64,000 bases of DNA from Eremomyces bilateralis CBS 781.70 (Eukaryota; Ascomycota; Dothideomycetes; Eremomycetales; Eremomycetaceae). Location of the stretch: assembly GCF_010015585.1 (NCBI RefSeq), contig NW_022985071.1, positions 685,979 to 749,978 on the forward strand. Direction: 5' to 3'. The first letter of the stretch is position 1; every line of letters begins with the position of its first letter. The notes under the pieces were generated by a model. That model made no database searches. It was not told where the DNA came from and was given only the letters and a program-made list of their open reading frames with translations. A program made the position numbers and the translations under genes. Positions 54,454-62,297 of this stretch are shown one piece after another.

Positions 54454-54913
54454 GTTGATCTAAGCGATGGTGATGGTATGGGCTAGCAGGCTTGTATGGC
54501 GCATTAGGTCGGGTAAAGCAAGGCGAGGGTGGAAGAGCGAGTAGGACGAAGCGAGGGTTGGTGGAAGGTGATCTGTTGGTATTCAGCATCCATGAAGGGG
54601 CCTGAGAATTATTGTCGGATGCGGACATGCGCTGCTGACTCAGCCAGGCCTGATACAGTGAATGAGAGTTAGGAGACAGGTATCAAAAAGGATGTCCATC
54701 AAGGCGTAGTATATTGTCAGAGTGGCTGGTACATTCATTTATACAGCGAATACTCTTGAGCAGTATCCGTACCCTAGGGTTAATATTTGCTACGGAGTTG
54801 TTTGATGTTTACGCCTTGCGGAGAGTTGACGCTTGACAGTTGATAGCTAAGGATGCACGTGATCTAATCAAAATATTTATACCCTAATTAGGCAAGAAGG
54901 CAGAAACAGAAAC
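54454..54913. promoter_or_regulatory. cet1 upstream region before the transposon island
   Basis: Remaining host sequence of the former cet1-rpn2 divergent promoter; AT-rich after 54780. Ends with GAAAC at 54909-54913, which recurs right of the element at 59541-59545. Confidence 0.45.
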
Positions 54914-55154
54914 GAGCTTACAGTTCGCCCCACTCTCAGATGAACTTTCGGATGAGAGTCGCCAGCCGGCCATATGTTTTTCCGAAAGACAGAGACCATC
55001 CACTCTCAGGTGACAATGCCCACTCTCAGATGAACTTTCCTTTTCACACTACCTTGTACCAATGTTTATCAAGATGTCGTTGAGCAAGAATGTAAGTTAT
55101 TCGGAAAATGTTTAGAATATATTCCTAATTAATCCAGCCTATCTACCAATCGTA

Positions 55155-55871
55155 TTGTGCTCTGCCGTCGCGACCTTTGGGCACGGAGCCTTGGGGGCAA
55201 GATGTAGCGGGGCACGACCGATGCAGATAATGGCTGCCATTCAAAAGGAGGATCCGAACACGCCAGTCTCAACCACCGATATTCGCAGCGAGAGGAAGGC
55301 AATTAGAGAGAAGCACTTGAATAGGAGGAGTCTGAGGAGTCCGATTAAGACATCACTAGATGACGTGTCTACGTTGACCCCTGTACCTGCCCCTATATCT
55401 TCCCCTACCCTATCTCATTTATCTTCCCCTATCTCTGTTGCTGTATCTGCCAATATGTCTCGATCCCCTCTATAGCCTGCCTGGCAACCTCCGTCGTTGG
55501 AAGAGTTCTTTGCTGATATCGAGCGTCGACGGCTTCAGCCTACTCTGCATCACTGTAGTGACTTAAATACAGTGACCAAATTTTTGGCAGAGACAGGGCA
55601 GGAAAAGGACCCGATAGAACTGGTTGAAGCACGGAATATGGCTCTCGCTACAAGCGGAGTATATGCTCCATGTACTCCAACAATGGCATGGAATTATAAC
55701 TTTGGAGATATACAGGCTTTCTACGCTGAGAGATTCGCACAAGTTGATGCTCAAACTACTCCTTTTGAGTATCGGGATGTACCGAGAGAGCGCCCTAAGC
55801 GCGCTGCAGCAGAGAGGGCTTCAAATGCTTGGAAAGAACTCGGTCCGTGCAAGAGGCAGCGACGTCAGTAG
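55155..55871 (+). pseudogene. plus-strand frame in the element, interrupted by a TAG
   Basis: One reading frame of 239 codons with an in-frame TAG at 55473-55475. Before it: IMAAIQKEDPNTPVSTTDI and RSERKAIREKHLNRRSL, resembling the N-terminal region of fungal MULE transposases, followed by Thr/Pro/Ser-rich repeats. After it: SLEEFFADIERRRLQPTLHH, RNMALATSGVYAPCTPTMAW, FYAERFAQVDAQTTPFEYRD and a basic end. Codon usage and hydrophobic pattern look protein-coding on both sides of the stop. It could be a decayed accessory protein or a fusion of internally deleted transposase ends. The exact family is not certain. Confidence 0.45.
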
Positions 55872-56026
55872 AAAGAAGAGAGGCTTAATAATAGAGTAGC
55901 CAATATGAGTCATTTAAGAGGAGCAGACGGAAGCCTCCCGCCGAACACACGTTAATTATGCTCCAGCTTTTGATTTGAACCTCGTACCAAAATTGATATA
56001 ATTTATTCTATACTAAATAGTACAGG

Positions 56027-56096
56027 TAGGAAAAACCCATTTGGTGGGAAAAACCCATTTAGTGGGAAAATCTCATTTGGTGGGAAAATCTCACCT
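56027..56096 (+). repeat. tandem repeat, about 18-bp unit CATTTGGTGGGAAAAACC
   Basis: Four consecutive degenerate units (GGTGGGAAAAACCCATTT and variants with TCTCATTT) between the two genes of the element. It is framed by GTAGG on the left and CCTAC on the right, so the block is an imperfect inverted arrangement. May lie in the 3' regions of the convergent genes. Confidence 0.75.
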
Positions 56097-56142
56097 ACAT
56101 AATTGCCCTGGTTAAATACATTTCTAATACATTAGAAAAGCA

Positions 56143-59100
56143 TTACTCTAGTCCCCGACTTAGACTCTGGTTTTCTAACTCTCTTCTATCATTCTCAAGT
56201 CGCTTTTGCCGTAGTTCTTCCCTCATCAACTCAATTCTTAATTGCTTTTCCGTCTGATCTAGCTCCATATCTTGCCGTTCTTGGCTTTGGTTAAGTATGT
56301 TCTCGGAGGCCATACGGCAGAGAGCGAGTGATGTATCTCTAAAATGGTAATAGATTAGATACGTATTTCCAATAAATTCTAAATTCATTACCTCTGCGCC
56401 GATCCCCTTCGTCTTGTAGAAGAGCTGCGTGAGCTCGAAGATCTTGAAACGCGTCTTCTTTGGGGCTCTGGTGGGAGTAGCTCGGTATCTACCGAGCCAT
56501 CGTTATCATCTTCTGACTCTCGCCTCCTTGAACCTATAGAATTTCGAATACGTTAGAAATGTATTAGAATATTTCGGAAAATTTGGTTCGTACGATCTCT
56601 TCTAATAGCCTCTGCGAACCTCTCCGATAGCGACGTATTCCGCCATGAAAGCGAGATTCCATAGCCTGCCCGGCTGTTATATCTATCAACATCATACTTA
56701 TCAAGGATCTGGCTTCTATAGGGTCGTTAATATATTTCTAAAATGTTAAGAATAACTTACGAATGAATTGCTCGAAGTAGAGGGAGTTGTCGGCCAAAAG
56801 AGTTACTCTTAAAGCGTGTTTGCTCAGTAGCATTAGTGTGATTCCGAGTCCTTTCCCAGACCTCACTAGCAATCATTGAGCAATGTTTATTAAGGCCACA
56901 CGCAATTGAAGGCTGCATCTTATGCCGAGTCCACTCCTTCACACTCTCAGAGGAACTAGAGGATGCTAGACAAGTAGTAATATATTAGTAATATATTACA
57001 AATGCATTCGGTATAGATTCCATGGAGAGACGTACTGATAAGCTCATTGCAGAGCTGAAAGTAGTCCGCCTGTGATTCGCAGCGTACTAATTCCCCCATG
57101 CGTGCATGGATAGAGTTAGTATTATGGCCTGAAGTGCCTGCTGCACGATCAATGGATCGCTTGAAATGTATATAACAGAGCATGACGGTATTTCGAGCCT
57201 GCCACTCCCATGGACGATGTGAGCCATCAATTTGAGATAGATATTGGCCCCATCCTAAAACATTAATACCGCGTTTCTAATTCATTTAGAATACCTTACC
57301 TTGAAGCTGGCCTCTGTCCATATCGGTCACAATGCAGGCAAACCCAGTACCATGTAAGTGCTTCCAGCGAATTTCACGCTCGAGTTTAGAAGATAGAAGC
57401 CCAAATAGGGCTTCAAAGGCTTTCGTGTAAGCGGTAGAGCTCTGTGCATTGATGAACACTCGGGCAAATGTAAAAACTTATGAATGTATTAGTAATACAT
57501 TTATAAAAGGATTAGCGACTTGACTTACTCTTTTCGTTCTCTGGGAGGTAGGCCGCAAAGACGATCTCGTTGATGTCTTTATCTCGCACACGTTTGAAGC
57601 CCATATCAATCTCAAAGGATTCCCGATCTAGTATTATCTTTACTTGTTCTTTGAAGAAACAAGTAACCAGAAGGTTAATACCATCGAAGTAATACCCTTG
57701 GATATACTGGAGATATGTTAGTAATGCATTTGCAATGCATTGTAAAATAATTACCTGATTCGGTTTCCCCGATTGGATCTTGTACTCGTTTTCAACAGCG
57801 GCAATTGACTGGCCAAAAGGATAGGAGAGAAGCCTCTGTTTCTTTATAAGAGCACTAATCTTATCAAGATTACTGAAGCTTTGGTGGACATCAGCAAGAG
57901 ATGTTCCTTGATGCTGTGTACAAAAACGCTGCATTTCTGGATGCCGAAGGAGACCAGCTAGAGAGGTAGAGATACATTAGAAATGTATTTTAAATGTATT
58001 TATAATATGTTCTTACCAGTGGTAATGCTAGGATCACTAATCCTTTGAATGACTTTTACGATCTCATCGCAGTATTGCTGGGGCGTCTTCGTTGGTGGAG
58101 GTGGAGGATGTCGATGGGTGCCATGTGATAACCATATGAAGTAAGGTGTCTCGTCCATTTCAATTGAGAGATACACCGTAAATTGTACGGTACAAGGGAG
58201 TACAACGATATCTCCCTGTCCCTGGGGATGATCAACACCTAAACTGATTTAGAATATATTATAAACATATTAGTAATGACTTACCGCAGCGTTTGGCCCT
58301 GCTATTCATCTGTTTGAGTACAGCACATGGCTCGACGACAGTGTCATGTTCTGTAGTGTTGAAGAGGGCCTTGATTTCAGTAATTCGAGGATAAAGATAT
58401 CCTGGAATAGATCGGAAGAAATGTTGTGAGCCATATGTATGACGCTCACATCGGATGTAGAAGTTTGGGACGCCCGAGATAGTCTATTATATGTTATAAA
58501 TGTATTCGAAATATAGTAGAAATCAGTAAACCAAACTTACCACTTGTGAACTTTGGTAAACCTCTGGAATACAGTTCTCGTCTTGAATGTCTTTACAAGC
58601 AGATCCCTTGCGAAAGGCTTCTATGATAGGCAGGTAAAAGCTAATACCAGTTAACGCTATATCCACTAAATGCATTTATAATTGTATTTCAAACCTATTC
58701 GCTTGCTGGGTAAGGCTCGACTGCTGATATGCATTGCGAGAATTACGTATTTTCTCCCAGTCATCTTCTTCGAAGCACGTATGCTTCAGATCGATGATAT
58801 CCTGAGCGAGATATTGACACGCCTTGACGCCCGTACATCGTGCTGACATACGATAGCACCGTGCATTATCTAATATCTTCACCACTGAGGTATGCTTCGA
58901 CCATTTAAGGGCAGATGAGTATTGTACCTATAATAGATTAGAAATGATTTAAGAATATATCCCTAATATATTACCAAGTCTTTATGTCGCTTTCGATCCT
59001 CGGCTGGAATGCCTTGAAGGTTGACAACATAGGCAATTCCTTTTTCTGATGTTTGAGGATAATCAGGGATCGAAGGAACATAAATGATACGCTCAACCTC

Positions 59101-59317
59101 AACATTGCCATGCGATGATTTAGATATAATCCATGGTTCATCAGCAGGAAGTATATCAGACTAATACATTAGTAATGTATTTGTAATGAATTATTTAGTT
59201 GAATCTCACATTGTCCTGCTGGACATTTTCGGATATTTCAGGATAGGTTTCTAGCTCATCCTCCTCAAAAGGAGTAGACCATGGCACAGAAAAACCAATG
59301 CCAGGAAACTGGGCCAT
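56143..59317 (-). CDS. 829-aa protein of an uncharacterised fungal element family, possibly a Mutator-like transposase
   Basis: Fourteen exons (59210-59317, 58975-59160, 58695-58927, 58541-58640, 58285-58483, 58017-58238, 57755-57957, 57529-57706, 57300-57476, 57036-57254, 56761-56965, 56594-56715, 56392-56533, 56143-56338) join without a stop or shift; all 13 introns (45-70 nt) are GT-AG. Order of parts: MAQFPGIGFSVPWSTPFEED; a cysteine segment RCTGVKACQYLAQDIIDLKH-TC; GVDHPQGQGDIVVLPCTVQF; WLSHGTHRHPPPPPTKTP; LADVHQSFSNLDKISALIKK; FEIDMGFKRVRDKDINEIVF (candidate first catalytic Asp); HLHGTGFACIVTDMDRGQL (candidate second Asp); GQYLSQIDGSHRPWEWQ; CYIHFKRSIDRAA. The tail is Arg/Ser-rich (SRSSSSRSSSTRRRG) then coiled coil (LRIELMREELRQKRLENDRR). 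I recall similar unnamed proteins in many fungi but no experimental function. Confidence 0.75.
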
Positions 59318-59545
59318 AATAAATGTATTCCTAATGCATTATGCATACAATTTGGATGGATTGGTATTGGTAAGAAAATGGGGTGTTGATCTGGAAGAGT
59401 TCATCTGAGAATGAGAAGTAGTTTGGCTCGGGCGGGTCATGTGATGTGTTTCTATGGACCGTGCACTCTCAGTCTCAGATGAAATGATGAATTGATGAAA
59501 GCTCAATAGCTCATCTGAGAGTGGGCCGACCTGCAGCCTCGAAAC

Positions 59546-59562
59546 CAGGGTGGAGACTTGAG
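59546..59562 (+). repeat. left terminal repeat of the hAT element
   Basis: CAGGGTGGAGACTTGAG; inverted partner at 62298-62314 with one mismatch. Confidence 0.9.
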
Positions 59563-59763: not shown

Positions 59764-62043
59764 CTACATAGCCTCCGTAGACGCCTGATGATAGATAATC
59801 CTCTCGAGCTCCATATCACTGATAATACCTTGATTAAACCAATTCTGTAGGCAAATCAGTCTGTTCAACGTTTTTCCCTCCATCCGTGGCCTTTCGGTAT
59901 CAAGAAGTCTCCCACAAGCTGACCAAATCCGCTCCATATCAGCGGCGGAGGAAGGAGTCGCGAAGAGGTCCAGAGCGATCTGGTATAGAGCGGGAAACCG
60001 CGTGCGATTAGCTACCCACCACGTAATAGGCGTATCAGTCTCCTCAGGGGCCTCTCGGAGATAGTAGGAGACCTCATCGGGCGTGGAGATATTACGTGGT
60101 TCAAAACGAGGCGCGAGGGCTGCCTGGAAGGCCTTGTAGACCCTTTGGCGATCACTAGGGATGGTCTCCTGCGAGGCCTCCTGTGCATTCTCTGCACCCG
60201 AATCATTATCCTGTATCTTGGATACATTCTCGCGGAGTTTGCGTAGGAGCTCGGCAGTCTTGTGGCTACTAGCTTCGGAGTCGTCCAACCACGCCTTCTT
60301 GTATTTTGGGTGGAGGAGAAGGGCGAGTCTGTACGCAGGAATATCCTCCATCTTAGACCGGTATTCCTTCGCCTTAACCAGGGCCGCTTGTATGGCCCTT
60401 ACGAGCTCCTGGAGCTCCTGATTCTGTGAAAGATCCGCGAGGAAACCCTCCAGGGCCCGGATAATCATAAGAAGCGATGGATACGCCTCCCAAAGAGCCC
60501 CTTTAGCACCATGGTCCGCATTCCCTTCCAGGATCCAGGTCGCATGCTTCATCGGTTCGTACAACTCGATAAGTTTCTCAAGGATACGCCAATCGTCGAC
60601 GGTAAGGCCCTGAAGGTGCTGATACCGCTCGCAGTACTGATCAATAGCGACACGCAGCTTGATGGCTCGCTGGACCGAATCGTACCGCGAGTTCCACCGT
60701 GTGGCGTTCTCACGTACGATTCTAAGGGGCCGATCGGTCTTAATGGACTTTTCGTTGCCCGTCATATCCTCAATAATATCAGTCTGTATCGTAAAGAACT
60801 CTTTCTCCTGTTTAGGACTCTTTTTGATATGACCAATGATAGCTTTAAGCTTGGTAATGGGCTCTATGTCGGTATTGGTAGGAAACCCAGAATCCAAATC
60901 CGTGTAGCCTTCAGCCCGCCTAGGTCGTATAGTATCAAGCCCATTGTCATTGCTGGCTTCGATATTAGACGAATGGTCCCTGGAAAGCTGTTGGCAAACT
61001 AAATTCACGATGTGGGTACTACAGCGTAAACGCCTTCCCGATAAAGTGAGATTTAGGAGCTTCCCAAGCTCTTTAACCGCGGTAGAGTTGTTTTCCGCGT
61101 TATCAGACATTAGGAACGCAATCCTTGCCTGTATCTCAAACGTTTGGATAGCCTTGGTAAGGAGCTGTGCGATATTGTCGCCGGTATGAGCACCTTCGAT
61201 CTCCTCTAGCCGTAAGAGGATATTTTGTTGACGCGGTATTCCTTCCCCGGAGATGAAATGCGCCTCGATCCCAAGGAAAGGAAGGTCGTTCGTAGAGGTC
61301 CAGATGTCATAAGACAGTGAAACATTGCTAAGACTCCGCGAGATCTTATGAGAAACGAGACGACGACATTCCTTGTATGCGAGATCAATTTTCTTGCGCA
61401 CAGACTTATGGTTGCGTACTCCCATCTCAATCTCTCCACCACTTAAAGACTCCATCAGCGCGTTGAAGCTGTTTGACGAAGCCTGACGAAAAGGCACTCC
61501 ATCAACCACTAGCCATTTCAAATAGGCTGTGTGGGCGTTGAGGAGGGTCCTCTGACGGTATCCTGTAAAATCCTCCCACGATTCTGGATGTCCTGGAGGG
61601 ATAACCTTCGATCCATGCCTGAGAAAACCGTGATCGTTTATGAGATGTCGACGGGCATTGGAAGTAGCTGATATCGAATACATCTTGATATCGTTGATCG
61701 ATTTCGCTTGAAACCAGCATTTACGACAGACCCAGTACGGTATCTCTTCCTCTGTATCGCCCATTTTCCGTACTGTAAACCCCCAGTACCATATGGAGCT
61801 TGTCCGGTGTTTCTTCCGCATTGCTTGACGCGTTGGAGGAACGTCAACCGCATATAGACCGTATTTGTCGAGCTGAGGTCGCAGGGGGACAAACTCTAGC
61901 AGTCGGTCTGTTTCCGTGGTATATGGGGTCTCAGACGACGAGGTCGAGGAGTACGAGTCTGTATACGATGCCATATTGATGTTTTCCATGATCGGAATCT
62001 CGTTTTCTTGAAATCTCACGGACTTTTGGTGAAACCGGACCAA
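59764..62043 (-). CDS. hAT-family transposase
   Basis: Single exon, 759 aa, unbroken. A BED-type zinc finger has C106 and C109 (WVCRKCWF) and H133 and H138 (RRHLINDHG). The RNase-H-like catalytic core begins at LSYDIWTSTNDLPFLGIEAH (first Asp), continues with IAFLMSDNAENNSTAVKELG (second Asp) and RRLRCSTHIVNLVCQQLS (the CxxH motif). It is interrupted by the usual all-alpha insertion (TRWNSRYDSVQRAIKLRVAI, YEPMKHATWILEGN). The C-terminal dimerisation domain is ITWWVANRTRFPALYQIALD and FATPSSAADMERIWSACGRL, then RLICLQNWFNQGI. All family landmarks are present, so it may be active. Confidence 0.95.
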   Translation of the reverse strand: MVRFHQKSVRFQENEIPIMENINMASYTDSYSSTSSSETPYTTETDRLLEFVPLRPQLDKYGLYAVDVPPTRQAMRKKHRTSSIWYWGFTVRKMGDTEEEIPYWVCRKCWFQAKSINDIKMYSISATSNARRHLINDHGFLRHGSKVIPPGHPESWEDFTGYRQRTLLNAHTAYLKWLVVDGVPFRQASSNSFNALMESLSGGEIEMGVRNHKSVRKKIDLAYKECRRLVSHKISRSLSNVSLSYDIWTSTNDLPFLGIEAHFISGEGIPRQQNILLRLEEIEGAHTGDNIAQLLTKAIQTFEIQARIAFLMSDNAENNSTAVKELGKLLNLTLSGRRLRCSTHIVNLVCQQLSRDHSSNIEASNDNGLDTIRPRRAEGYTDLDSGFPTNTDIEPITKLKAIIGHIKKSPKQEKEFFTIQTDIIEDMTGNEKSIKTDRPLRIVRENATRWNSRYDSVQRAIKLRVAIDQYCERYQHLQGLTVDDWRILEKLIELYEPMKHATWILEGNADHGAKGALWEAYPSLLMIIRALEGFLADLSQNQELQELVRAIQAALVKAKEYRSKMEDIPAYRLALLLHPKYKKAWLDDSEASSHKTAELLRKLRENVSKIQDNDSGAENAQEASQETIPSDRQRVYKAFQAALAPRFEPRNISTPDEVSYYLREAPEETDTPITWWVANRTRFPALYQIALDLFATPSSAADMERIWSACGRLLDTERPRMEGKTLNRLICLQNWFNQGIISDMELERIIYHQASTEAM

Positions 62044-62297
62044 GACACAGACTTGAATTTCGGTTTTGAGCTACTGTACATTTGTAACATGAGCAATGAA
62101 CATCGAATTTCGACATGAAGCCGTCATTGCTATGTAATTCATATGGTTTTATAGCCATAACGAGCAAATCTGGGGTCCAAGTCCAGCAAGATTGGTAGAC
62201 TAGTATGGAAGAGGATTAGCGGGAGACTCGCTACGAATCTTGAGCGAGCATCGAGCGAGTCCTTGGCGAGCGAGTGCAAATGAAGCGAGTGGCTCGA

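Follow-up and report, generated by a model that had tools for sequence, protein, structure and literature searches.

The introns of transposase genes are usually regarded as neutral filler. En/Spm-type elements carry subterminal arrays, in which many copies of a short, element-specific word are bound by the element protein, and Mutator-like elements (MULEs) show the motif order D - D - CxxH - TNxxE and target duplications of 8-11 bp. Here we describe a MULE-like DNA transposon at positions 54914-59540 of a 64,000-nt stretch (the window) of contig C5, in the 26.6-Mb genome of the Dothideomycete Eremomyces bilateralis CBS 781.70. The introns of its transposase gene and of the paralogues are arrays of a dyad-symmetric core of ~8 bp, repeated at a spacing of exactly 11 bp. 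Like En/Spm, the window element has many copies of a short word specific to it; the En/Spm arrays adjoin the element ends, whereas these lie in the introns, the leader and the 3' region, with exact 11-bp spacing. Mutually similar introns also characterize introners and symmetrical stwintrons, and inverted repeats occur in introns of the Hypoxylaceae, to which two of the homologues described below belong (PMC9860276, PMC8469720). Those introns spread to new positions in many genes (PMC9860276, PMC8469720), whereas the intron positions of the window family are old and common to paralogues, and what its introns have in common is the 11-bp unit alone. Introner-like elements would be marked by almost identical introns at novel sites across many genes; here all 13 positions are shared with the closest paralogue, and window-type triple arrays were found only in the window element and one short derivative. 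Literature searches, chiefly outside subscription journals, listed no paper on 11-bp-array introns and none on concerted introns within one transposase gene among their matches.

Enumeration of GT-AG introns gave, as the longest product, an 829-codon frame on the minus strand with 14 exons and 13 introns of 45-70 nt (gene, 56143-59317, with the start Met at 59317, the final codon closing at 56146 and the stop codon at 56143-56145), ahead of splice choices with 827 and 824 codons. In a spliced alignment with the closest paralogue, on contig C14, all 13 introns fell at the identical residue and phase. The unbroken 829-codon frame with 13 GT-AG introns proposed in a sequence-only reading of this locus was thereby confirmed. 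The gene and its arrays are secure as facts of sequence; the splice sites are predicted, from the open frame and the conserved intron positions. The existing database entry, P0001, is a partial model of 472 amino acids, the UniRef name of which begins with 'MULE transposa'.

An inverted-repeat search paired the introns of the window gene with one another, and autocorrelation showed that they pair because of an 11-bp periodicity. At lag 11, 50% of the bases matched against 32% expected (z 8.2), and the four other paralogues gave z values of 9.7, 7.7, 8.1 and 6.8. When the 51 introns of the five genes were pooled, z reached 19.0 at lag 11 and 9.5 at lag 22, with all other lags from 2 to 25 at or below 1.4 and some below expectation (lag 3, -3.6). 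The shuffled nulls preserve dinucleotides only, and the spliced aligner gives a small bonus to introns containing CTAA or CTGA. A strict set of 42 introns gave z 16.8 (lag 11) and 8.7 (lag 22), and its 29 members outside the window gene gave 14.3 and 8.4. The nine introns dropped for this set were C43/36 (single query), C43/417 (placed by eye, frame off by one base), C43/718 and C43/765 (query-dependent donors), C56/176 (GC donor, single query), C56/209 (query-dependent donor), C44/209 and C44/536 (single query each) and C44/677 (donor and acceptor from different alignments, chosen after the motif had been seen); the noisy alignments of C44 had proposed 17 and 22 introns, and 6 were kept. The exons of three genes carried no lag-11 signal (z -0.2, -0.3 and 1.3). 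Neither did 31 host intron candidates (z 0.2), which are consensus-based, unannotated and less AT-rich (GC 0.48 versus 0.25-0.37), 11 of them lying in the window and the remaining 20 at 15 loci elsewhere, FAR1-MULE copies included. When the entire window was scanned at a looser threshold, lag 11 had 24 peaks, lag 12 had 34 and lag 15 had 22, so that an individual lag-11 peak carries little weight; across the paralogue loci, lag 11 was dominant (13, 7, 11 and 14 peaks).

The units fitted at period 11 were AATATATTACT in the window gene, GAATATATTAT in C14, TAACATGTTCT in C43, AAACATATTCT in C56 and AGCATATGCTA in C44, different words in one common frame. All five are dyad-symmetric (individual p values 0.0005-0.009, Fisher 2e-10), a property that binding sites for dimers on DNA would be expected to show. 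A scan tolerating one mismatch counted 47 AATRYATT cores in the window element, 32 of them in 685 nt of intron, where each of the 13 introns has at least one, and 7 in the 2490 nt of exon. The distance from one core to the next is 11 bp in 18 cases and 12 bp in one, and never 8-10 or 13-16 bp; in 54 kb of host window, no cores spaced by 11 bp were found. The arrays extend beyond the modelled introns. On the minus strand, the core scan found two cores 11 bp apart in the leader, directly before the ATG (59322-59340), and C14 likewise has a two-unit 11-bp array just before its ATG, outside its modelled introns. Three further cores at the same spacing, seen in the core scan and the triple-array search, lie at the stop codon (56115-56144, minus strand), in the 3' region or a possible 14th intron; in sequence, this candidate (56146-56108) is another 11-bp array. 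Across the 26.6 Mb, window-type triple arrays (at most 3 mismatches) occur in six places, of which the window element accounts for five and a short derivative for the sixth, and a control pattern had no match. Two more 11-bp arrays, with other words, lie directly 3' of the C14 gene (L029:1620-1697 and 1787-1854).

The core word differs between lineages that share one nucleus. AATRYATT cores reach 10.2 per kb in the window element and 13.9 in C14, 6.2 in C43 and 4.6 in C56, and stand at the shuffled level in C44; AACRYGTT cores reach 10.2 per kb in C43 and 8.0 in C56, compared with 0.9-2.2 in the other genes; and GCATATGC cores abound in C44 alone (8.5 per kb, against 0-0.4 in the other four). 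Left-out introns were assigned to the right gene in 30 of 51 cases (k=5; null mean 10.8, maximum 20). Introns were also more alike within a gene (mean z 3.03, n=264) than at the same position across genes (1.51, n=79), which fits lineage-wide rewriting. Between the window gene and C14, synonymous sites are saturated (pS 0.84), and the intron period and symmetry are kept in both.

We propose, with a probability of roughly 0.42, that the intron arrays are docking sites for a dimeric DNA-binding protein encoded by the element. The arrays would act in DNA and not in RNA, because they have reverse-complement symmetry, show no extra RNA folding and include phased leader cores outside introns. Sites spaced by 11 bp lie on almost the same face of the helix, an arrangement well suited to dimers bound in a row, and the protein might bind them side by side on that face. 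Because lineages within a single nucleus use different core words, the putative binder is more plausibly encoded by the element than supplied by the host; it could be the transposase, acting by way of its N-terminal Cys/His region, or the product of a second gene. Exons cannot drift to array words, which leaves the introns, the leader and the 3' region, and the sites may have collected there as the sole room in a compact element. Docked arrays could mark the element as its own, serve as nucleation points for protein along its length and/or reduce its transcription. As the protein of each lineage shifted its preferred site, the arrays of that lineage would follow, giving lineage-specific cores at conserved intron positions. 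The fuller form of this proposal, in which a transposon lineage turned its transposase introns into a coded docking surface of palindromic arrays in phase with the helix, with cores rewritten together with the protein and introns serving as cis-acting DNA address labels and not as RNA spacers, is more doubtful, and we advance it tentatively.

Several observations weigh against this proposal. Exact palindromic 8-mers are raised only modestly (41 versus 21.7 +- 4.9, z 4.0; host z 2.0), and palindromic 10-mers with one mismatch are not raised (z 1.3). Ideal triple-unit patterns of the C44 and C43 types had no matches at 3 mismatches. The lineage specificity is graded, in that the window gene and C14 share nearly one core and C43 and C56 another. 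Same-position introns of the window gene and C14 (z 3.56 +- 0.75, n=13) are as alike as introns within a gene (3.4), so the claim of within-gene likeness holds for the deeper splits only. Measured over stretches of 1.5 kb, the element (z 3.5 and 2.8) scores no higher than the top one among 36 host pieces (3.9; mean 0.88); the periodicity is a property of introns. Lag 9 accompanies lag 11 in the second-gene region of C44 (z 4.9 and 6.5) and in its three strictly placed introns (2.9 versus 4.0). Branch-point words of the CTAAY type occur within the array units, and part of the pattern may therefore be due to splicing; that the binding protein is encoded by the element is a guess.

The branch-point words lead directly to an explanation at the RNA level, namely that the arrays are stacked branch-point units, the spare branch sites of which make tiny introns splice robustly in any host. 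The units can indeed be read as CTAATACATT, CTAACACGTT and similar, ~11 nt each with a CTAAY-like word, and the arrays are concentrated in introns. Branch words, however, require no reverse-complement symmetry, yet five of five units are symmetric; arrays also occur in two leaders outside modelled introns, the words differ among lineages within one nucleus, and the 31 host intron candidates lack the pattern. We consider this explanation unlikely. As another explanation at the RNA level, hairpins were rejected as the source of the intron symmetry, because folding was not enriched: the intron RNAs were not more stable than shuffles (mean z -0.24 +- 0.14, n=51). Neutral homogenization, by slippage or template switching during the gap repair that follows excision, would copy short repeats from intron to intron within an element in either orientation. 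It would account for the greater likeness of introns within a gene than at the same position across genes, and orientation-blind copying would likewise yield a symmetric consensus, but the exons of the same genes bear no trace of it and the spacing is exactly 11 in all five lineages despite their diverged units. Its chances seem to us about as low as those of the branch-point explanation.

The remaining candidates appear much weaker. A chromatin function, with AT-rich words at every helical turn positioning nucleosomes on the element or keeping them off it, agrees with one unit per turn and with AA and TT steps in phase; lag 10, however, is not raised (z 0.1), C44 uses GCATATGC, and a generic chromatin signal need not be lineage-specific, making this very unlikely in our view. 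Slightly less credible still is a recent arrival of the five genes from several donor fungi that differed in intron style. The patchy distribution, limited to Eremomyces and three Xylariomycetidae, speaks for it, whereas at least three donors would be needed, each with the 11-bp intron habit, and the single intron of a FAR1 element at L034 is of the ordinary type. The least probable candidate is a link to homology sensing of the repeat-induced point mutation (RIP) type, with the arrays as bait, decoy or by-product. In Neurospora, such sensing is reported to recognize homology in units spaced by 11-12 bp, although 10 bp was most effective in one assay (PMC4858203). Differences between the C56 gene and a partial copy on C18 are RIP-like (17 of 21 at CpA/TpG), but a C-to-T change is unable to create palindromic arrays and mutual homology would be a liability to an element.

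Whichever explanation holds, the transposase introns here carry an exact, symmetric 11-bp DNA pattern that is kept past synonymous saturation and differs by lineage. Should the arrays prove to be binding sites, the 13 introns may have been kept as free space for cis-acting DNA in a compact gene, and autocorrelation of introns at lag 11 would offer a simple test for relatives that profile searches miss.

The transposase itself has a predicted fold closest to the IS256-type transposase ISCth4. Its motifs (D451, D528, CxxH, TNxxE) follow the MULE order, and the DDE triad lies on an RNase H-like core with the third acid beyond a helical insertion. The N-terminal Cys/His region ends in HxHP and is weakly alignable to a FAR1 finger; a profile comparison with the FAR1-type MULE aligned just the HxH end of one finger (P 0.06). 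Further likenesses to IS256 and MULE elements are the GAG ends, the short derivatives, the terminal inverted repeats common to long and short copies (not found for C14 and C43) and the foreign gene fragment carried by the window element. The differences are the 5-bp flank, the 13 introns of phased arrays, a family with only three proteins found outside E. bilateralis, and the Pfam result: the MULE profile PF10551 matched neither the 829-aa model nor its relatives (a FAR1-type MULE of this genome gave 2.2e-23), and a Pfam search of the full model and relatives gave nothing above the cut-off. Foldseek with P0001 returned hAT (Hermes) structures as top matches (E 1.5e-3), which share DDE on an RNase H fold; the hAT dimerization domain PF05699 had no match in the transposase family, and when PDB sequences were searched using a 3-row profile, the matches were at chance level only. 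As there was neither a Pfam MULE match nor a target duplication of 8-11 bp (5 bp at the window copy, none clear at the C9, C5, C27 and C44 ends), we describe the element as a MULE-like, IS256-fold DNA transposon and not as a proven MULE. The interpretation offered by the sequence-only reading is supported in part.

On sequence grounds, the window element is a member of a mobile family, because the genome contains four diverged paralogues, found by protein search on C14, C43, C56 and C44, and short deletion derivatives. C14 is the closest (56% identical), with an open 833-codon frame; despite this frame, Q replaces the third catalytic acid (TNAVQQ, L029). In C43, the aligner recovered 12 of the 13 introns within 2 residues of the window-gene positions and the 13th was placed by eye. 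The C56 and C44 genes contain stops, and their intron positions agree where alignable, partly approximately in C44. C56 has an insertion of ~1.8 kb with 88-nt inverted repeats. The partial copy on C18 is 98-99% identical to C56; L030:1305-4346 and L033:1-1228 have 21 aligned differences, 20 of them transitions and 17 at CpA/TpG, C56 being the changed side, a RIP-like signature. The C44 element is bounded by 128-nt inverted repeats (91% complementary), the tips of which (GGGCTTACAGTTC) resemble those of the window element (GAGCTTACAGTTC); its downstream half (L032:6140-8380) probably holds a minus-strand second gene with several GCATATGC-array introns. Around C14 and C43, the inverted repeats found were only chance-level pairs (18 of 24). 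A further element, on C9, has the same ends as the window element, and short derivatives that share these ends or inner parts lie on C5, C27, C1 and C4. L060:278-4061 is an element with the window element's ends. Two short derivatives (L040:6745-7319 and L042:2794-3522) have a second, inner terminal-repeat copy ~60 bp inside one end, which the right ends of the window and C9 elements resemble. Outside the species, the three homologues are all from Xylariomycetidae (Pseudomassariella vexata, Daldinia loculata and Jackrogersella minutella), a patchy distribution; the Jackrogersella protein has G at the first D position.

The introns of the window gene, all on the minus strand and placed by the C14 spliced alignment, with core counts from the AATRYATT scan, lie in order from the first at 59161-59209 (residue 36, phase 0; three cores), 58928-58974 (residue 98, phase 0; three), 58641-58694 (residue 176, phase 2; two), 58484-58540 (residue 209, phase 0; two), 58239-58284 (residue 276, phase 1; two), 57958-58016 (residue 350, phase 1; four), 57707-57754 (residue 417, phase 0; two), 57477-57528 (residue 477, phase 1; two), 57255-57299 (residue 536, phase 1; three), 56966-57035 (residue 609, phase 1; three), 56716-56760 (residue 677, phase 2; one), 56534-56593 (residue 718, phase 1; two) and 56339-56391 (residue 765, phase 2; three). 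The imperfect terminal inverted repeats, proposed earlier at about 33 bp, were borne out as 34-nt arms with 82% complementarity (54913-54946 and 59508-59541); from the inverted-repeat search and the ends of other copies, we delimit the left repeat at 54914-54946 (plus strand) and the right at 59508-59540 (minus strand). GAAAC, already noticed on both flanks, is present at 54909-54913, as a possible target duplication, and at 59541-59545. Among five copies examined, it was the sole target duplication made out, and none matching it was clear at the C9, C5, C27 and C44 ends, possibly because these copies are old; without a counterpart there, the GAAAC duplication may be chance.

Inside the left end, on the plus strand, lies a putative second-gene stub (55074 to approximately 55206), recognized from similar stretches in short derivatives, with an ATG, an intron of the 11-bp type (55092-55137) and the start of exon 2; a six-frame comparison was noisy and gave no firm homologue among the matches listed. 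It is followed on the same strand by an internally deleted FAR1-type MULE gene fragment (approximately 55209-55948), which belongs to a family common in the genome and is unrelated to the element's own transposase. Both halves of this fragment occur ~1.4 kb apart within a longer gene on C6, the first exon of which matches the Pfam MULE profile at 2.2e-23. Elsewhere in the genome, the FAR1-type family has ~25 matches of at least 250 bp, including L034:2356-4820. Rfam gave nothing at the gathering score over 54900-59560. The left neighbour of the element is an open reading frame with an mRNA-capping-enzyme domain, and ~220 bp past the right end lies a 768-aa hAT transposase open reading frame (59767-62070), which matches the hAT dimerization domain PF05699 at 6.4e-17.

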